Shown one piece after another: positions 11,007 through 61,873 of a DNA stretch of 64,000 bases (the stretch's first letter is position 1; every line of letters starts with the position of its first letter). Both the position numbers and the translations under genes were made by a program. The DNA is from Natronorubrum thiooxidans (GTDB taxonomy: Archaea > Halobacteriota > Halobacteria > Halobacteriales > Natrialbaceae), in NCBI RefSeq assembly GCF_900156475.1, contig NZ_FTNR01000002.1, positions 124,001-188,000 on the forward strand, given 5' to 3'. Under the pieces are notes generated by a model that did no database searches, was not told where the DNA came from, and saw only the letters and a program-made list of their open reading frames with translations.

Positions 11007-12401
11007 CTAGTCGTCAGCCGCGACCGGCTCCTCTGCGCTGTCGTCTTCGTAGCCATTAGCATCGTCTGCTGGCTCCGTATCATCCGTCGTGTCGTCAGCG
11101 TCGTCTGCTGGCTCCGTATCATCCGTCGTGTCGTCAGCGTCGTCTGCTGGCTCCGTATCATCCGTCATGTCGTCAGCGTCGTCTGCTGGCCCAGCGTCGT
11201 CTTCGACCTCCCCGTCGAGTTCGTCATCTTCGTCGGCCATCGTTCCGTCGACAGCGACGCGGACGGTGAACGGTCGCTCGTCCTCATCGGTCTCGGCGAC
11301 GTCTTCCGTGTCGGATTCGGCGTCAACGTCGTCGGCCTCGTCGTCCATCTCATCAGCAGCACCGTCCTCAGTCACGGACTCGTCTTCCTCGGCAGCGTCT
11401 CTCTCCTCGAGGTAGCCGATCGCGTACGCCGTGTACGCCGTGTTCTCCTCGAGTTCGAGATCGACCGAGGCGACTGGTTCAGCCTGGGCGTCCGATTCGT
11501 CGTCATCCAGTTCGTCCTCGGCGTGGTCGTCCCTCCCGTTGGACTCCATTTCATCGTTCGTCCCGTCGGTCTCTGCCCCGTTCTCCAGCTCGTCGTCCGC
11601 AGCTGGGGCAATATCGACGGTGTACGATCCCGGCTCGAGGGGGAGGTATCCCGATGGCTCGCCGAAGGAGATGTCTTCGAAGAGTGGCGTGTCGTCCGCG
11701 GCATTGAGTACGTCGACGGTTGGTGCGTCGGGTGAGGCGTGGACGACTCTGACATGTGACGTGCCTTCAGCGACGTCCTCCGGACTGTCATCGACGAGCA
11801 GCAAGACGTCGAACGTCCCCGTATCGAGGTCGTCGTCGGCCTCGCCAGATTCGTCTGTCGGCTCGGATTCACCGGCCATTTCGTCGTCGTGTTCACTTGC
11901 GTGCTCGCCGGTACCGTCCGACTCGCTGTCAGTATATTCGTCCGACTCGCTGTCGGTATATCCGTCCGACTCGCTGTCGGTATATCCGTCCGACTCGCTG
12001 TCTTCGACCGCATCGTCGTCGGCCTCGAGTTCGCCGATCGCAGCGGCCGTATAATACTCGGCATCGATGGCGACGGGTTGCTCGTAGACGACCGTCTCCG
12101 GATCGCCGGCCGCCGTGATCGTTACCGTGTACGTCCCGGGGGCAACCTCGAGATACGGCGAGAGCTCGTCATATGCGACGTCCGCGAGCACCTGCTCGCC
12201 GTCGATCAGCACGTCGACGTTCGGCGCGTCCGGTGAGAAGTGGCCAACGCGAAGCGCGCCGACGTCTTCGTCCTCGGGCAGCTCCTCGGGTTCCCGTTCA
12301 TCGTCCTCGTGCTCACTGACGGCCAACGCCGTCCCGGTGAGTGTCGATCCAGCTCCAATAACACCAATCGCTTTGATTGTCGATCGTCGTGATAGCGTCA
12401 T
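11007..12401 (-). CDS. Tat-exported, repeat-rich acidic DUF4397-domain protein
   Basis: A 464-residue exported protein. The N-terminus MTLSRRSTIKAIGVIGAGST has a twin-arginine signal with no lipobox, so it is probably secreted or cell-surface. Two DUF4397-type beta domains are visible: GALRVGHFSPDAPNVDVLID (about 47-120) and SHVRVVHASPDAPTVDVLN (about 190-330), each with the repeated SPDAP.VDV signature. They are joined and followed by very acidic low-complexity linkers. Two arrays of exact tandem repeats lie inside the gene: 8-residue SDGYTDSE-type units and 13-residue DDADDTTDDTEPA units. ATG 12401 fits the Tat signal; the frame is open 8 codons further upstream. The function is unknown; fasciclin-like adhesion or matrix roles are guesses only. 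Confidence 0.85.
   Translation of the reverse strand: MTLSRRSTIKAIGVIGAGSTLTGTALAVSEHEDDEREPEELPEDEDVGALRVGHFSPDAPNVDVLIDGEQVLADVAYDELSPYLEVAPGTYTVTITAAGDPETVVYEQPVAIDAEYYTAAAIGELEADDDAVEDSESDGYTDSESDGYTDSESDEYTDSESDGTGEHASEHDDEMAGESEPTDESGEADDDLDTGTFDVLLLVDDSPEDVAEGTSHVRVVHASPDAPTVDVLNAADDTPLFEDISFGEPSGYLPLEPGSYTVDIAPAADDELENGAETDGTNDEMESNGRDDHAEDELDDDESDAQAEPVASVDLELEENTAYTAYAIGYLEERDAAEEDESVTEDGAADEMDDEADDVDAESDTEDVAETDEDERPFTVRVAVDGTMADEDDELDGEVEDDAGPADDADDMTDDTEPADDADDTTDDTEPADDADDTTDDTEPADDANGYEDDSAEEPVAADD
11062..11178 (-). repeat. Tandem repeat, three 39-bp units inside the DUF4397 gene
   Basis: Units at 11062-11100, 11101-11139 and 11140-11178 are identical except for one base in the third; a partial fourth follows. 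Each encodes DDADDTTDDTEPA. The near-identity points to recent slippage or unequal exchange. Confidence 0.95.
11916..11987 (-). repeat. Tandem repeat, three 24-bp units inside the DUF4397 gene
   Basis: Units at 11916-11939, 11940-11963 and 11964-11987, plus 15 bases of a fourth, encode eight-residue DGYTDSES-type repeats. The first unit differs by a few bases. Confidence 0.93.
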
Positions 12402-55039: not shown

Positions 55040-55846
55040 TCAGTGTTTGTCAGGCATCGTCGAGTGGCGCGCGGTCCCTTTCATGTCGGCACGCTCCGAC
55101 GGCGGTGGTGCCATCGTCGAGTAGCGGGTCCCACTGCCGCCGGACGTCTCGCGATTCTGGTTCGATCCGAGTCCAGCATCGAGCAGTCCGTCGTCGTCTT
55201 CCGCGTCAGTTTGGTCCGCTGTCGCTTCGTCCTCGTCGTCTGCTCCATCGTCCTCGCCGACGGTGCTGGCGCTCGCCTCCTCGAGTCGACCCTGGAGTTG
55301 CTCGAGGTCGTCACCGATGCCCTCGAACGAGGACTCCATGGCCGACCGAAGCTGGTCGCCGAGATCGCTGGACGTGTCGGTCCCATCGGACTCGTCTGTG
55401 CTCTCATCAGCGGTGTCCGCTTCTGTCTCATCCGTCCCGTCGTCTATCGAGCCGGATTCGGCTGTCCGCTCGCCGTCACCGATCGCTGCTTGTAACTCGC
55501 CGACGGCCCCCTCGAGTGCCTCGCCGTCGTCCCAGTCGGCGAGTTTCGAGAGGTTCAGCAGTCGCTGTAGCTCCTCGACCTGCGCTGGATCGCCCTGAGC
55601 GATCGCCGCCGGAATCGAGTCCGGTTCGGTCCCATCCGGGAGCGTATCCAGGCCGACCGCCTCGAGCAGTTCCTCCGACTCGGCCGACTCGAGGAGGTCG
55701 TTCGCCTTCGCTGCGGTCTCGAGTAGGTCTGTCTGGGCCGTCTCGTCGGCACCGTCGTCCGAGTCGCTCGTCGTGACGAGCGAGCCACTGGATGCATCGG
55801 CCTCGTGCAGTACCTCGTTCACGTGTTCACGCAGTTCTTGGCTCAT
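55040..55846 (-). CDS. Acidic low-complexity protein, cluster gene 4, unknown
   Basis: 268 residues, very acidic, with no signal peptide or transmembrane segment. An N-terminal helical block (MSQELREHVNEVLHEADASS) and a segment of short Leu-rich helices (LLETAAKANDLLESAESEEL, VEELQRLLNLSKLADWDD). An acidic Thr/Ser/Asp linker and a heptad-like block (LGDQLRSAMESSFEGIGDDL, EQLQGRLEEA) follow. The last 30 residues are unlike the rest: basic, Pro-rich and containing TRYSTM and RHSTMP. Last gene of the four-gene acidic cluster, 50 bases after gene 3. No known family is recognised. Confidence 0.7.
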   Translation of the reverse strand: MSQELREHVNEVLHEADASSGSLVTTSDSDDGADETAQTDLLETAAKANDLLESAESEELLEAVGLDTLPDGTEPDSIPAAIAQGDPAQVEELQRLLNLSKLADWDDGEALEGAVGELQAAIGDGERTAESGSIDDGTDETEADTADESTDESDGTDTSSDLGDQLRSAMESSFEGIGDDLEQLQGRLEEASASTVGEDDGADDEDEATADQTDAEDDDGLLDAGLGSNQNRETSGGSGTRYSTMAPPPSERADMKGTARHSTMPDKH

Positions 55847-55896
55847 CTGTCGTGTCTCGGTTCTGAACCCGCACTCGAGGCGGTGATATCGATCGA

Positions 55897-56886
55897 TTAC
55901 TCGGCTTGCGCGTCCGCCTTGTCCGCCGATTCGTCGTCCGACTCGTCGTCCGTCACCGTCGCGATGATTTCCTCGGTCATCTCCTCGCGGCCGAGGTTCG
56001 CCTTCACGCCGACGTCCTTGGCGACTGATTGCAGATCGTCGTAGGACATCACCCCCAAGAAGTCCGTGAGCGTGTCTTTCCGGAGTCCTTCGAGATCCTC
56101 GGCCGACGTTTCCGAGTCGTCTTCGCCATCCTCCTCGGCGTCCGGTTCGTCGTCGCTTTCGTCTGCCGTGTCCTCCTCGGCGTCCGGTTCGTCGTCGCTT
56201 TCGTCTGCCGTGTCCTTTTCGGCGTCCGGTTCGTCGTCGCTTTCGTCCGCCGTGTCCTTCTCAGCGTCCGGTTCGTCATCGCCTTCCGTCTCCGCTTCGC
56301 CGTCCTCCGTCGTCTCGTCGTCCCCAGATTCGTCTGCATCGTCGTCCGTGAGGACATCGTCGAGTCCGCTGGCCTCGCTTACGTCCTCGGCGGCCGACTT
56401 GACCGCCGCTCGAGCACCGGACTCCTCGCTTTCCTCGTCGGCTTCGTCACTCTCTGCGTCGGCTCCGTTCGCCCCGTCCGCAGATTCCTCTCCGCCGGTC
56501 TTTCCCTCGGTCTCGAGAAGTCCCTCAAGGCCACTCCCTTCCGTCGCACCCTGTGCCAGAGACTGGACCGATTCCTTGGCACCGTTTTCATCGACCGTCT
56601 CGCGGAGGGCGTCACGGATCGCCGTCGTGAGATCCGACTGCAGCTCTTGGCGGTCTTTTTCGGCTTCGATCCCCTCGGCGATCGTCTCGTGGATCGCGCG
56701 GCCGATCGATGCACCCAGTTCCCGTCCCGCTCGAGCGCCGAACTCGCGACCGACCGCGGCACCGATCTCGCCACCATCGATACCGTCTTCGATGGAGCCA
56801 TCGCCGAGCAGATCGGTTACCGCGACCTGATTGCTCACCTCCTGGGCAACCAGCTGTTTCAGCCCGGCATCACTCATCAAACTCAC
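55897..56886 (-). CDS. Acidic protein with glycine-zipper head and SAP-like tail, cluster gene 3
   Basis: 329 residues. Residues 35-70 form a glycine zipper (GAAVGREFGARAGRELGASI), the pattern of a helix that packs in a membrane or oligomer. An acidic middle follows, with 14-residue tandem repeats (DTADESDDEPDAEE). Near the C-terminus a helical segment LRKDTLTDFLGVMSYDDLQS and VAKDVGVKANLGREEMTEEI resembles a SAP/Rho-N-type helix-extended-helix. Start MSLM or, three codons later, MSDAGLKQL. Shares the zipper theme with cluster gene 2. No function recognised. Confidence 0.72.
   Translation of the reverse strand: MSLMSDAGLKQLVAQEVSNQVAVTDLLGDGSIEDGIDGGEIGAAVGREFGARAGRELGASIGRAIHETIAEGIEAEKDRQELQSDLTTAIRDALRETVDENGAKESVQSLAQGATEGSGLEGLLETEGKTGGEESADGANGADAESDEADEESEESGARAAVKSAAEDVSEASGLDDVLTDDDADESGDDETTEDGEAETEGDDEPDAEKDTADESDDEPDAEKDTADESDDEPDAEEDTADESDDEPDAEEDGEDDSETSAEDLEGLRKDTLTDFLGVMSYDDLQSVAKDVGVKANLGREEMTEEIIATVTDDESDDESADKADAQAE
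56129..56254 (-). repeat. Tandem repeat, three 42-bp units in cluster gene 3
   Basis: Units 56129-56170, 56171-56212 and 56213-56254, with a partial fourth to about 56286. Each encodes 14 residues; the copies differ at a few third positions. Confidence 0.93.
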
Positions 56887-56937
56887 CTCGAGGCGGACCG
56901 TCCGAACAGTCGGCGTGCAGTTGATACGATGACATGG

Positions 56938-57597
56938 TTATTCCTCCTCGTCCGTCGTTTCGTCTGCGGTCTCAGCGTCGTCGGCGTCCGCAGTTGTGGC
57001 ACTTTCTTTCTCACTTTCTGCGTCGTCGCTGGTGTCTTCGGCTTCCTCGGCCGGTTCGTCCTCGTCTTCGGCTTCCGCTGCCGGTTCGTCCTCGTCTTCG
57101 GCTTCCGCTGCCGGTTCGTCCTCGTCTTCGGCTTCCGCTGCCGGTTCGTCCTCGTCTTCGGCTTCCTCGGCCGGTTCGTCCTCGTCTTCGGCTTCCTCGG
57201 CCGGTTCGTCCTCGTCTTCGGCTTCCTCGGCCGGTTCGTCCTCGTCTTCGGCTTCCTCGGCCGGTTCGTCCTCGTCTTCGGCTTCCTCGGCCGGTTCGTC
57301 CTCGTCTTCGGCTTCCTCGGCCGGTTCGTCCTCGTCTTCGGCTTCCTCGGCCGGTTCGTCCTCGTCGGGACCAAGCAGTTCCTCGACGACCAGCTCACCG
57401 ATCGTCTGGCCGACAGATTCGCCCACCTTTCGGCCGACGAGTGCGCCGATCTGGCCGCCGAGTGCTTCGCCGAGTGGCTTCTCTTCGTGGATTTCGTCTT
57501 CCCACTGGGTTCCCTCGACGAGCTCATCGACGTCAACGTTGTCGGCGATCTTTCCGTAGTCGATCCGCTGGGTCACTGATTCCGATTGCTCACTCAT
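56938..57597 (-). CDS. Acidic repeat protein with glycine-zipper head, cluster gene 2
   Basis: 219 residues. After a soluble entry (MSEQSESVTQRIDYGKIADN) comes a glycine-zipper segment (LGGQIGALVGRKVGESVGQT). Then follows a tract of ten 10-residue repeats PAEEAEDEDE (three of them PAAEAEDEDE), and an acidic Ser/Thr-rich end. The repeat block makes up about half of the protein and has nearly no hydrophobic residue. It starts 2 bases after the previous stop. No enzyme motif; an extended or brush-like spacer is the simplest reading (inference). Confidence 0.72.
   Translation of the reverse strand: MSEQSESVTQRIDYGKIADNVDVDELVEGTQWEDEIHEEKPLGEALGGQIGALVGRKVGESVGQTIGELVVEELLGPDEDEPAEEAEDEDEPAEEAEDEDEPAEEAEDEDEPAEEAEDEDEPAEEAEDEDEPAEEAEDEDEPAEEAEDEDEPAAEAEDEDEPAAEAEDEDEPAAEAEDEDEPAEEAEDTSDDAESEKESATTADADDAETADETTDEEE
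57053..57352 (-). repeat. Tandem repeat, ten 30-bp units in cluster gene 2
   Basis: Ten complete units with start positions every 30 bases from 57053, then a partial unit to 57366. Seven encode PAEEAEDEDE and the first three (by coordinate) PAAEAEDEDE. Within each class the units are identical, pointing to recent expansion. Confidence 0.97.
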
Positions 57598-57599
57598 GA

Positions 57600-58595
57600 T
57601 TACGCCTCCGCCTGTGGCGCTGCATCGGACTGGGCATCCGACTCGACTTGCTCGCGATCCGGCTCGAGTTGCTCGATCAGTTGCTCGATTGCCTGGCTGA
57701 CGATCGTCGCCACGAGGTCTTCGAGCGGGAAGCCGGGAACGAGCCCGAGTAGCTTCTCTTTTAGCCAGCTCCAGGCGTCGGCGAGCCGACCACTGGACTC
57801 GTCGGCCGTCTCTGCTGTCGCTTCGGTCTCGGCGTCCGATTCCTCGGCAGCGGTTTCCGCTTCGTCACCGCCAAGACCGAAGAGTCTACTGAGCAGTTCC
57901 CGTGGCTTGCTCGCCAGTCCGCTGAGGAGCGCTTTCGGTTTCTCCAGCAGGCCGCTAAGTAGTTCCTTCGGCTTGTCCAGGAGTGACGATACTGCGTCCG
58001 AGAGGCCGCCAGCGCCATCGAGAAGGCCCGTCACTGCAGACAATAGGTTCCCGAGCAGGTTGTTTTCACCCGGGCGAGCCGAGACGTCGAGCGTCACTGG
58101 ATTTAGATTCACCTCGAGGCCGAGCAGATCGAGAAACAGCCCATCGAGATCCAGATGGAGGACGCCGGACGTGTCGTCGTCTTGGTAGACGTCCTCGGCG
58201 TCTTCGACGTGGTACTCGTCTTCTTCGTCGGTCGCTTCTGCTTCGTCTGCTTCCTCCTCGGCTGCTTCTTCCTCAGCCGCTTCCGCTTCGGCCGCTTCTT
58301 CCTCAGTTGTTTCCTCTTCGGCTGCTTCTTCCTCAGCCGCTTCCGCTTCTTCCTCGGTTGTTTCCTCTTCGGCTGCTTCTTCCTCAGCCGCTTCCGCTTC
58401 TTCCTCGGCTGTTTCCTCTTCGGCTGCTTCTTCCTCAGCCGCTTCCGCTTCTTCCTCAGCCGCTTCTTCTTCGGCCGTTTCCTCGTGGGCGTCCGGCTCC
58501 GCCTCGGCTGTCTCCGCTTCAGACGTCGATTCACCGCCATCGCCCTCCTCGCTCTCGTCTTCTGCTGACATCTCGGCTTGCCCGCCGTCGGTCAT
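57600..58595 (-). CDS. Acidic repeat protein with 11-residue amphipathic repeats, cluster gene 1
   Basis: 331 residues from ATG 58595. An N-terminal Glu/Ala-rich tract of 17-residue tandem repeats (about 30-110) leads to a distinct domain (HLDLDGLFLDLLGLEVNLNP). Then follow Leu-rich 11-residue repeats of the form SGLLEKPKALL (SSLLDKPKELL, SGLLEKPKALL, SGLASKPRELL). A C-terminal helix SWLKEKLLGLVPGFPLEDLV and QAIEQLIEQLEPD end the protein. An in-frame ATG at 58712 would add a Cys-containing 39 residues but has atypical codon use. First gene of the cluster. Eleven-residue amphipathic repeats often bind lipid or protein surfaces (family knowledge). Confidence 0.68.
   Translation of the reverse strand: MTDGGQAEMSAEDESEEGDGGESTSEAETAEAEPDAHEETAEEEAAEEEAEAAEEEAAEEETAEEEAEAAEEEAAEEETTEEEAEAAEEEAAEEETTEEEAAEAEAAEEEAAEEEADEAEATDEEDEYHVEDAEDVYQDDDTSGVLHLDLDGLFLDLLGLEVNLNPVTLDVSARPGENNLLGNLLSAVTGLLDGAGGLSDAVSSLLDKPKELLSGLLEKPKALLSGLASKPRELLSRLFGLGGDEAETAAEESDAETEATAETADESSGRLADAWSWLKEKLLGLVPGFPLEDLVATIVSQAIEQLIEQLEPDREQVESDAQSDAAPQAEA
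58261..58473 (-). repeat. Tandem repeat, four 51-60-bp units in cluster gene 1
   Basis: Units 58261-58320 (60 bp), 58321-58371, 58372-58422 and 58423-58473 (51 bp each). They encode Glu/Ala/Thr-rich 17-residue blocks. Confidence 0.88.
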
Positions 58596-58944: not shown

Positions 58945-60219
58945 TTACTCAAGCGAGCCGACGCAAAGCGCGTACTCGCCGCGCCGGTTGCCCTCATCGT
59001 GATACGCGACAGGCTCTTCGATCGCCGCGATGGTCTCACCGTCGACGGCTGCAGCGGTCGCGACGCCCTCGAGAGGTTCGACGCCGGTCGGTCCGGATTC
59101 GAGGTCGAACCAGCGAACGGCATGTGTCTCGGGGTCGCGAACGCGGAAGTTCTGGGCACACGGTGTGACGAGCGTGTCACCATCGGTGGCGAGCCCATGA
59201 ACGAACCCGCGAACCTGCTCGTCCCACAGGAGGCCACCGTCGGCATCGAACGTCGCAATCCGATGCTCGTTCGGATGGCGACCGTTGGTCTCGCGGCTCT
59301 CGAGTGCGTAGGTGTTCCCGGTAATGAACGCCACCCGGTCGTTGTTCGCGTAGACGTGATTCGGGTACGCATACAGCGTCTCGCCGTCGAGTTCTGTTTC
59401 GACCGCCAGATCGACGGCCCAGCGTTCGGCCCCGCCGGGGCCGAGCAGGTAGCCGCGCTTGTCGCCGTGACTCGAGACCGCGATCGAGTCCTCGTCGAAC
59501 GAAACGTCGCCGACGCGCCGGACGCCCTCGGTGCCGGGGTCCCAGGTCCACTCGAGATCGCCCGTTGCCGTTCGGAGGACGACGAGCCCGTTGTCGTGGT
59601 CGCCCATACAGCGGTTGTAACCCACGGCGAGGCGCTCGCCAGCGTCATCGAGATCGATCGCGATCGGTGAGGCGTCGGTCTCGTAGGTCCAGCGAACCGA
59701 GCCGTCGGGATCGAACGCGTAGACGGTGCTGTGCCACTGTCGATGCTCGCCGTCGCGCTCGTAGCGTCGCGCGGCCGCGTACAGTTGGTCTCCGTCCGTC
59801 TCGAGCGCGACGACGTAGGGCAAGTAGAAGACGGTGTCTTTGACCGCCTCGCCGACGTCCGCGGCCGTATCGTACCGCCAGCGTTGCTCGCCCGTCTCGG
59901 CGTCGTAGACCGCGATCGCTCCCGATTCGCCGCGGCCGGCGACGGCGACTGCACCAGCGCTGCCGGCTGTCTCGTCGTTCTCAAGCGTTGCAATTCCGAC
60001 TGCGTGATCCGGATGAGTGACGGTCCAGCGGGGCTCGAGGGAGTCGGCCTCGCGGGCGGTGACCGTCCCGTCCCATTCACCCGTCACAACGAGGTCGGCA
60101 GTCGTGGCGACCGCAGAGCGGGTCCACATGTGTCGGCTGCGGGCCGGTTCGAGGTCGCCAAGCGGTCGTCGTTGGAGCGATCGCTCGTGCTCTGGTTCGG
60201 AGCCAGCGGTTCCAGCCAT
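58945..60219 (-). CDS. PQQ/WD40-like beta-propeller protein of the cobalamin cluster
   Basis: 424 residues, soluble, with no signal. About seven blades of PQQ-binding-like type, each with a W/A-x-V-F-D-A-D/E-T-G pattern: GAIAVYDAETGEQRWRYDT, STVYAFDPDGSVRWTYETD, LVVLRTATGDLEWTWDPG. A lone C-terminal Cys (CVGSLE). ATG 60219 is chosen; a GTG two codons upstream overlaps the DUF3209 stop by three bases. Propellers of this type accompany cobalamin genes in haloarchaea to my knowledge, but no function is known: a scaffold or sensor is a guess. Confidence 0.82.
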   Translation of the reverse strand: MAGTAGSEPEHERSLQRRPLGDLEPARSRHMWTRSAVATTADLVVTGEWDGTVTAREADSLEPRWTVTHPDHAVGIATLENDETAGSAGAVAVAGRGESGAIAVYDAETGEQRWRYDTAADVGEAVKDTVFYLPYVVALETDGDQLYAAARRYERDGEHRQWHSTVYAFDPDGSVRWTYETDASPIAIDLDDAGERLAVGYNRCMGDHDNGLVVLRTATGDLEWTWDPGTEGVRRVGDVSFDEDSIAVSSHGDKRGYLLGPGGAERWAVDLAVETELDGETLYAYPNHVYANNDRVAFITGNTYALESRETNGRHPNEHRIATFDADGGLLWDEQVRGFVHGLATDGDTLVTPCAQNFRVRDPETHAVRWFDLESGPTGVEPLEGVATAAAVDGETIAAIEEPVAYHDEGNRRGEYALCVGSLE

Positions 60220-60221
60220 GC

Positions 60222-60593
60222 TCACTCCTCGACCGGGAACGTCTCGTGGAGGGTGTCGTGGGCTTCACCCATCCCGTCGACGATACTCTCGCCCTGAACA
60301 CTCAGCCGCTCGATCGCCCGCTCTGCGTTGCGGACCTCGAGCAGTCGACCCCGGGTGTAATCGTACTCGGGATCCTCGCTGTCCATGGCTGCAACGTCCT
60401 CCTCGAGGTCGACCAGCGCCGCATCGAGGTGGCGCTGGATCTCGGCAAGGGTGTCGGCCTCAACGAGGCCCTCGATGGGGCCCTCGAGATGGCCTTCAAG
60501 TTCTTTCTCCGCGTGCTCGCGGGCGCTCTGGTCCCCGACGCCGAGGACGTTCATCAGTCCGAGTCGTACCGCTTCGATTTCGTGACAGCTCAT
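60222..60593 (-). CDS. DUF3209 family protein
   Basis: 123 residues, all-helical and acidic. Opening MSCHEIEAVRLGLMNVLGVG with Cys3 and His4, then REHAEKELEGHLEGPIEG, with His in a repeated HxxxxxxH-like arrangement. The family occurs next to CbiX in haloarchaea and is of unknown function. Cys and His at the N-terminus could bind cobalt or iron (inference). 53 bases downstream of cbiX on the same strand. Confidence 0.85.
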   Translation of the reverse strand: MSCHEIEAVRLGLMNVLGVGDQSAREHAEKELEGHLEGPIEGLVEADTLAEIQRHLDAALVDLEEDVAAMDSEDPEYDYTRGRLLEVRNAERAIERLSVQGESIVDGMGEAHDTLHETFPVEE

Positions 60594-60646
60594 AGCTAGT
60601 TTCTGTGATTTCGTGATCGGTGGTTGGTCGTGTGTCTATGCGTCTG

Positions 60647-61873
60647 CTACAGCGTCTGGTCGACGAGGTCGCTCACGATGCGGTCCCGATCCAGGTGGTC
60701 CGCGACGAGTCGTTCGGCATCCTCGGCTGCGACGTCGCCGTACCAGATTCCGCCGGGGTAGACGGCGACCATCGGCCCGTCGCCACAGCGACCGAGACAG
60801 GACGACCGCGTGATGCGGGCATCGCAGTGGTCCGAATCGCGGACCTCCTGGCGAAGGCGCTCGAGCACTGCGGGCGAGCCCATCTTCGCGCAGGTCTGGT
60901 TGGTACAGACCGCAACGTGCTTCTCGGGTGCGTCGTGGGTGTGTGGTTCGTCGTCGACGTCCTCCCGATCCGCGTGAGTCTCCTGGTGAGCCAGTGCCCG
61001 AAGCATGGCCCGTGCGCCGCCGACGTCCTCTTCGTACCCCTCGAGGTCGACTTTGTACTTGCACGTGTCACAGGACATCTCGACGCTGTCGGTGCGGGCC
61101 TCCTGCCAGCGGTCGGCGAAAACGTCGAGTAGTCGCGAGTCCGTCCCGAGTGGGTCGCCCGCCAGCGCGTCGACGTAGGGGTAGTCCTCGTCGAACTCGG
61201 CCGTCCAGTCCCGGACTCGCTGGGTGAGGACGCCGTCGCCGAGCATGTACGGCAGGACGACGACTGCGTCGGGACGGTGTTTCGAGAGGCCGTGTAAGGT
61301 GTCCTCGAGCGTCGGCTCCGTGACGCCGATGAACGACGCTTCGACGCGGTCGAACGCGCGGCCTTCATACAGCAGTCGGGCCAGTTTGTGGACGTCGCCG
61401 TTGGCGTCCGGATCGCTCGAGCCACGCCCACAGACGACGACGGCGACGTCGTCCTCGGTGCGGTCGACGCCCAGCGCCGATTCGACCGCGTCGGCGCGGT
61501 CGTCGAGCAGATCCAGAATCGCCGGATGGATACCCAGATGCGCGCCGTTGTTGAGCTCGACGTCGTGGGTCGCCCGAGCCTGCTCGATCGCCAGCGGCAC
61601 GTCGTTTTTGACGTGACTCGCAGCGAACAGCGAGCAGTGGACGACAGTTACCTGTGACGTGACGGCTGCGAGTTCCGCGATTGCGTCGTCGATCGCCGGC
61701 TCTGCCAGCTCGAGAAACGCTGCGTCGACCGGAATCCCCAGTCGCGACTCGAGGTCGGCGGCAAGCTCTCGCACCTGTTCGTTCGATTTCGCTCGACGGG
61801 AGCCGTGTCCCACCAAGAGGACGGCCTCGTCGTCGAACGCGGACGTGGATATGGAATCGTCGGATTTACTCAT
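60647..61873 (-). CDS. cbiX: Sirohydrochlorin cobaltochelatase CbiX fused to a thioredoxin-like ferredoxin
   Basis: 408 residues. Two CbiX domains: half one has the metal-site His in LLVGHGSRR and in CSLFAASHVKNDVP, while half two (VVVCGRGSSDPDAN, VLPYMLGDGVLTQ) lacks both. A CxxC region MSCDTCKYKVDLEGYEED follows. C-terminal 2Fe-2S ferredoxin-like domain with CTNQTC and SSCLGRCGDGP. CbiX inserts cobalt into sirohydrochlorin in the anaerobic cobalamin pathway. It sits 55 bases downstream of the LAGLIDADG-like gene on the same strand. Confidence 0.93.
   Translation of the reverse strand: MSKSDDSISTSAFDDEAVLLVGHGSRRAKSNEQVRELAADLESRLGIPVDAAFLELAEPAIDDAIAELAAVTSQVTVVHCSLFAASHVKNDVPLAIEQARATHDVELNNGAHLGIHPAILDLLDDRADAVESALGVDRTEDDVAVVVCGRGSSDPDANGDVHKLARLLYEGRAFDRVEASFIGVTEPTLEDTLHGLSKHRPDAVVVLPYMLGDGVLTQRVRDWTAEFDEDYPYVDALAGDPLGTDSRLLDVFADRWQEARTDSVEMSCDTCKYKVDLEGYEEDVGGARAMLRALAHQETHADREDVDDEPHTHDAPEKHVAVCTNQTCAKMGSPAVLERLRQEVRDSDHCDARITRSSCLGRCGDGPMVAVYPGGIWYGDVAAEDAERLVADHLDRDRIVSDLVDQTL

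Follow-up and report, generated by a model that had tools for sequence, protein, structure and literature searches.

A probable accessory gas-vesicle module encoded apart from the gvp cluster in Natrialbaceae, with a possible role in place of GvpC

Haloarchaeal gas vesicles are a main model for protein-shelled organelles, and their parts list was compiled from a few gvpC-bearing species. In bacteria, GvpC consists of chained helical repeats of 33 residues and runs along the GvpA ribs (PMC9994262), and the loss of GvpC in Haloferax transformants results in long, weak vesicles (PMC7688916). GvpI belongs, together with GvpD, GvpE, and GvpO, to the haloarchaea-specific Gvp proteins, and the protein of H. 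salinarum is short and basic (15.8 kDa, pI 10.8) (PMC9501494). GvpI has other Gvp proteins as interaction partners and causes GvpJ, GvpK, and GvpM to oligomerize, while its loss in Haloferax transformants leads to extremely long vesicles (PMC7688916). A review describes several haloarchaeal lineages whose gvp clusters are devoid of gvpC and gvpDE and in which gas vesicles are not visible; the cause was left unexplained, and the absence may reflect the growth conditions tried (PMC4390858). The current study deals with four adjacent genes of Natronorubrum thiooxidans (Natrialbaceae), located at positions 55040-58595 of a stretch of 64,000 nucleotides, hereafter the window (assembly GCF_900156475.1, contig NZ_FTNR01000002.1, positions 124,001 to 188,000).

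The assignment of these four genes to gas vesicles is strong, and we regard it as close to certain, because they are conserved as a unit, are linked to gvp genes in other families, occur and are lost together with GvpA, and include a homologue of GvpI. Taken as a whole, the reading that we favor, with reasonable though not high confidence, is that they constitute an accessory gas-vesicle module, which is unlinked from the gvp cluster in Natrialbaceae and probably coats or shapes the shell in place of GvpC. For the specific replacement of GvpC, considered by itself, we see slightly less than an even chance. The module comprises the following genes.

58595-57600, minus strand: gene 1, an open reading frame of 331 amino acids (aa), consisting of an acidic N-terminal tract, a conserved core of ~60 aa VLHLDLDGLFLDLLGLEVNLNPVTLDVSARPGENNLLGNLLSAVTGLLDG, three 11-residue amphipathic repeats, an acidic linker, and a conserved C-terminal amphipathic segment GRLADAWSWLKEKLLGLVPGFPLEDLVATIVSQAIEQLIEQLEP (from the translation and relatives).
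57597-56938, minus strand: gene 2, an open reading frame of 219 aa, with a conserved N-terminal region carrying a glycine zipper LGEALGGQIGALVGRKVGESVGQTIGELV and, after it, 11 copies of an acidic repeat of 10 residues (from the translation and tandem-repeat analysis).
56886-55897, minus strand: gene 3, an open reading frame of 329 aa from a GTG codon, with a glycine-zipper N terminus, acidic repeats, and a putative C-terminal SAP/Rho_N-like helix-extended-helix (..MSYDDLQSVAKDVGVKANLGREEMTEEIIATV..) (from relatives, the structure model, and fold and profile matches).
55846-55040, minus strand: gene 4, an open reading frame of 268 aa, a paralogue of the long haloarchaeal GvpI with the C-terminal motif RYSTM..ARHSTMP (from profile comparison).

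Each of the four genes was called by a codon-based gene caller, and the gaps from gene 1 to gene 4 amount to 2, 51, and 50 bases, so the layout given in a preliminary description of the locus was reproduced. Gene 3 probably starts at the ATG at position 56877 (326 aa), which is the start of its relatives. Conservation as a unit, for which the preliminary description had proposed a survey, was found at 36 of the 55 haloarchaeal loci that contain the gene-1 core in the GTDB collection, where genes 1-2-3-4 occur in the same order and no gvp gene is present in the stretch examined; several of the other 19 loci are cut by contig ends or embedded in gvp clusters. The loci with the ordered unit include those of Natronorubrum, Natrinema, Natrialba, Haloterrigena, Natronococcus, Halopiger, and Halovivax.

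In Natrialbaceae the module is unlinked from the gvp cluster, which in the window genome is located on a different contig (C11) and comprises gvpA, N, O, F, G, H, I, J, K, L, and M, without gvpC, gvpD, and gvpE. Relatives of genes 1-3 were found inside gvp clusters in four other families (f6, f12, f13, and f14) by a genome search and also in Halocatena and several metagenome-assembled genomes of the GTDB collection, and Pfam confirmed GvpA, F/L, G, H, and O in these clusters. An example is the order gvpM-L-K-J-I-H-G-F / gvpA-O-Zn ribbon-gene1-gene2-gene2'-gene3. Relatives of gene 1 are located just downstream of gvpA-gvpO in some clusters, and genes 1 and 2 lie between gvpH and gvpI in family f6. 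The GvpA of the module-bearing lineages is a strong match to the ordinary GvpA family. The preliminary description had recognized no family and had named homologues in a known system as evidence against its view. Such homologues were found, and the system is the gas vesicle: gene 4 is related to GvpI, genes 1-3 have relatives in gvp operons, and their presence tracks that of GvpA.

With respect to these variant gvp clusters, many of those in families f12 and f14 encode a small zinc-ribbon protein of 112-117 aa after gvpO and before the relative of gene 1 (e.g., L045:6111-6449 and L048:8339-8692); this protein represents a further conserved part. The gvp clusters with genes 1-3 in families f6, f12, f13, and f14 do not contain gvpN; a strong GvpN match is located elsewhere in the genome in f14.

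The distribution of the module follows that of GvpA. Among 391 genomes of the order, each with a completeness of at least 90%, 140 contain the gene-1 domain and 168 contain GvpA, with both in 139; the sole gene-1 genome without GvpA (G138) has a weak gene-1 match (E 7e-6). Within the family of the window, GvpA is present in all 93 genomes with gene 1 (93/93), all GvpA-less genomes lack gene 1 (10/10), and three genomes contain GvpA without gene 1. In a subset of 117 genomes, gene 1 is associated with GvpA at a p value of 3e-15, whereas the neighboring gene DUF3209, used as a control, shows no association (p 0.56); both values ignore shared ancestry. Losses within a genus are better evidence than these p values. 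The four-gene site was examined in four genomes of one genus of the window's family, three of which are GvpA-less: exactly the four genes are absent between conserved flanks in one (G333), broken remnants of genes 1 and 3 are left at the site in another (G155), and the four genes are gone from the site in the third (G055). Co-occurrence with GvpA as a matter of ancestry only is argued against by these losses and by the unassociated DUF3209 control.

A counterpart among the known gas-vesicle proteins was identified for gene 4. Comparison of the stand-alone gene-4 profile with the profile of gvp-embedded GvpI resulted in an hhalign probability of 99.6% (E about 1e-23, 239 columns), and the alignment is collinear over nearly the whole length, through the C-terminal STMP/STVP motif. 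Against the same GvpI profile, 0.1-3.3% was reached with genes 1-3, which rules out that acidic halophile proteins align indiscriminately and thereby cause the match. The long GvpI in turn matches, at 8e-8, a GvpI of 143 aa from a cluster with GvpC. Judged by its profile, gene 4 is thus a GvpI homologue. It is classified as a paralogue rather than as GvpI itself because it is located outside the gvp cluster, after gene 3 and not between gvpH and gvpJ, because it ends with ..HSTMPDKH, before the basic SRxRIYGRRF tail of GvpI, and because the window genome contains a separate gvpI in the usual gvpH-gvpJ position (L054:11628-12539). Gene 4 is acidic and has neither the strongly basic character nor the basic end of GvpI.

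A relationship to GvpC became apparent as mutual exclusion. The multi-repeat GvpC (PF05465) is present in 11 of the 391 genomes, all of which contain GvpA and none of which contains gene 1 (0/11); among GvpA-bearing genomes, and with ancestry ignored, the exclusion has a p value of 6e-10. Relatives of genes 1-3 are absent from the five GvpC-bearing clusters examined, and a search of the window genome with Halo_GVPC (PF05465) gave no match. These data are compatible with a model, which we propose tentatively and hold to be somewhat less probable than its negation, that haloarchaea finish the GvpA shell in two mutually exclusive ways: either with the classical GvpC coat or with the module, i.e., gene 1, the acidic glycine-zipper proteins, and an additional GvpI in Natrialbaceae. 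The module would then define a GvpC-independent class of vesicles with a different surface and could explain the persistence of gvpC-less clusters in so many genomes.

Several observations weigh against a replacement of GvpC or against the module as such, including the neglect of shared ancestry in the p values given above. Gene 1 and GvpC share no sequence similarity that could be found, and the GvpC family search misses the window genome. In 18 GvpA-bearing genomes there is neither gene 1 nor a recognized GvpC, which means that a substitute for GvpC may not be required at all; one of them (G277) encodes an unrecognized 416-aa protein at the gvpC position, and some of the 18 may therefore contain a missed GvpC. 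The fourth genome of the genus examined for losses (G244) has retained GvpA and its gvp cluster together with intact genes 2-4, and its gene 1 is truncated to an acidic stub of 88 aa directly before gene 2 (L182:9931-10197). The module lineages Natrinema, Natrialba, Halopiger, and Haladaptatus overlap with those reported to lack visible vesicles (Vac-) (PMC4390858). Finally, AlphaFold modeled the core of gene 1 poorly, with a mean predicted local distance difference test (pLDDT) score of 63.

All four proteins had been described as extremely acidic. The share of aspartate and glutamate in genes 1-4 is 34, 49, 35, and 28%, respectively, compared with a median of 19% in the window, and they rank 4th, 1st, 3rd, and 7th among the 63 called proteins of the window; genes 1-3 are hence extreme, and gene 4 is just moderately acidic. 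The second most acidic protein of the window, with 439 aa and a share of 37%, is encoded outside the module (11007-12326, minus strand). The acidic tracts are tandem repeats at the DNA level, with a 51-bp unit in 3.6 copies in gene 1, a 30-bp unit in 11 copies in gene 2, and a 42-bp unit in 4 copies in gene 3. Tract lengths therefore differ between strains and carry little homology signal, and the homology analyses were based on the non-repeat cores because the repeats vary among relatives. Pfam and NCBIfam searches with the four proteins resulted exclusively in composition-driven or sub-threshold matches and left none of them named. Phasin and S-layer families had no Pfam or NCBIfam match in any of the four; roles in polyhydroxyalkanoate granules, the S-layer, or a membrane coat were rejected, since neither family matches nor context speak in their favor.

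The 11-residue repeats of gene 1 (LLDKPKELLSG / LLEKPKALLSG / LASKPRELLSR), already noted in the preliminary description as SGLLEKPKALL-type units, stood up to analysis, with 16/33 identities at lag 11, a count that did not exceed 8 at the remaining lags between 3 and 15, and their amphipathic helical periodicity exceeds that of shuffled sequence. Gene 1 matches no known Gvp family in Pfam or NCBIfam, and a tblastn search of its core against a plasmid collection gave no matches. The glycine zippers of genes 2 and 3 were likewise verified. The N termini of the two proteins are paralogous (hhalign 98.9%), and the zipper glycines of gene 3, spaced by four residues, are invariant in 42 relatives. 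The C-terminal region of gene 3, earlier called SAP-like, is conserved among relatives and was modeled by AlphaFold with helices at residues 259-276, 279-289, and 297-314 (pLDDT about 90) in a helix-extended-helix arrangement; several SAP and DEK structures are among its weak Foldseek matches, all with E > 1. At the profile level, the best Pfam match is Rho_N (E 0.01, for one relative), followed by SAP_new25 (E 0.18-0.28); none of these reaches its curated cut-off.

Some of the 18 GvpA-bearing genomes with neither gene 1 nor a recognized GvpC also encode glycine-zipper acidic proteins in their gvp clusters (L165:9755-10435, L168:10562-11152, and L161:6631-7041), and some of these clusters carry second copies of gvpA or gvpO.

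How the module might act can be sketched as follows. Genes 2 and 3 would oligomerize via their glycine zippers, and the 11-residue repeats and the C-terminal helix of gene 1 would bind the GvpA shell from outside in a GvpC-like manner. Gene 4, as a second GvpI, could set vesicle length or connect Gvp proteins, and the acidic tails may point toward the salty cytoplasm as a hydrated brush or outer layer. The proposal of the preliminary description that the four proteins form one assembly coating a surface thus survives in part: the genes are kept in order across the family and are lost together, and the data agree with a coat on a protein surface, whereas a lipid or nucleic-acid surface has no direct support, although the SAP-like end of gene 3 would allow for nucleic acid.

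An unlikely but sizable alternative is that the zipper oligomers with their acidic tails hold vesicles together or apart, or tie them to the nucleoid via the SAP-like end, instead of strengthening the shell. The glycine zippers and long acidic repeats of genes 2 and 3 are in line with such clustering or positioning factors, as are the occurrence of zipper proteins in gvp clusters without gene 1 and the well-modeled C terminus of gene 3 (pLDDT about 90) with its weak SAP/DEK fold matches and the Rho_N profile match below the cut-off (E 0.01). Nucleic-acid binding by this end would be putative, with all Foldseek E values above 1, and positioning by itself leaves the mutual exclusion with GvpC unexplained. 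The same exclusion points to a role at the shell surface and, together with the absence of any known Gvp family match for gene 1, argues against assembly chaperones, which, with gene 4 acting like GvpI or GvpH, would keep the hydrophobic GvpA, GvpJ, and GvpM and the amphipathic proteins in solution while the shell grows. We consider this improbable, even though gene 4 is homologous to GvpI, a protein that oligomerizes GvpJ, GvpK, and GvpM and in whose absence vesicles become extremely long (PMC7688916).

The retention of gvp genes without reported vesicles would be explained if GvpA formed a nanostructure for a use other than buoyancy, with the module as its specific coat, and the overlap of module lineages with Vac- lineages whose clusters lack gvpC and gvpDE is in agreement with this (PMC4390858). 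Nevertheless, the GvpA of these lineages strongly matches the ordinary family, the window genome has retained the 11 other core gvp genes, and missing vesicles may, according to the same review, mean untried growth conditions (PMC4390858), so that we give this explanation still less credence than the chaperones. A surface or envelope gene set that covaries with GvpA by ancestry, without any functional link, is nearly excluded. The position of the Natrialbaceae module far from gvp, often beside cobalamin-related genes, would fit, but not its embedding in gvp operons of other families, the homology between gene 4 and GvpI, the matched losses within genera, and the unassociated DUF3209 control. 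The coating or shaping of the vesicle shell by the module remains our preferred reading.

In many Natrialbaceae, the module follows the cobalamin-related genes CbiX and DUF3209 and a BamB-like protein (58945-61873 in the window), and in others a gene that by eye resembles cobyrinate amidase. These surroundings are probably a neighborhood only.

No description of the four-gene module was found in a search of open-access papers. As far as found, it is missing from the haloarchaeal gas-vesicle parts list, yet it is common in gvpC-less lineages. Since it is located off the gvp cluster in Natrialbaceae, cloning of the gvp cluster alone would miss it. Its genes are specific candidates in the search for the missing coat or expression condition, and engineered gas vesicles for imaging could possibly be given a new coat from it.

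Beyond haloarchaea, the gene-1 core is clearly homologous to a widespread unnamed domain of Actinobacteria, Chloroflexi, and other bacteria (consensus LGPLxLDLLGLxVDLxxVxLDITAVPGxGNLLGNLLCAVAGLLDG), which is usually C-terminal in its proteins (e.g., L113, L117, and L118) and was matched by no Pfam model. The bacterial loci contain no gvp matches, and the core domain alone is therefore not a gas-vesicle marker outside haloarchaea. The bacterial domain stands behind signal peptides apparent by eye and has a conserved cysteine pair, whereas gene 1 has V and S at the cysteine positions and no apparent signal peptide and is apparently cytoplasmic. An exported domain may here have been recruited into a cytoplasmic organelle.

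Compared with the described gas-vesicle proteins, gene 1 resembles GvpC in its amphipathic repeats, which might rest against the shell. It differs in the repeat length of 11 residues, compared with 32-40 in haloarchaeal and 33 in bacterial GvpC, and in carrying an unrelated conserved core domain; by its sequence, it is not a GvpC. The relation 33 = 3 x 11 is suggestive and no evidence of homology. The end of gene 3 may share the helix-extended-helix pattern of SAP and Rho_N domains and is unlike them in having no Pfam match above the cut-off. Gene 4, finally, is with 268 aa and its acidic character distinct from the short, basic GvpI of H. salinarum, and it is encoded apart from the gvp cluster, which has a gvpI of its own.

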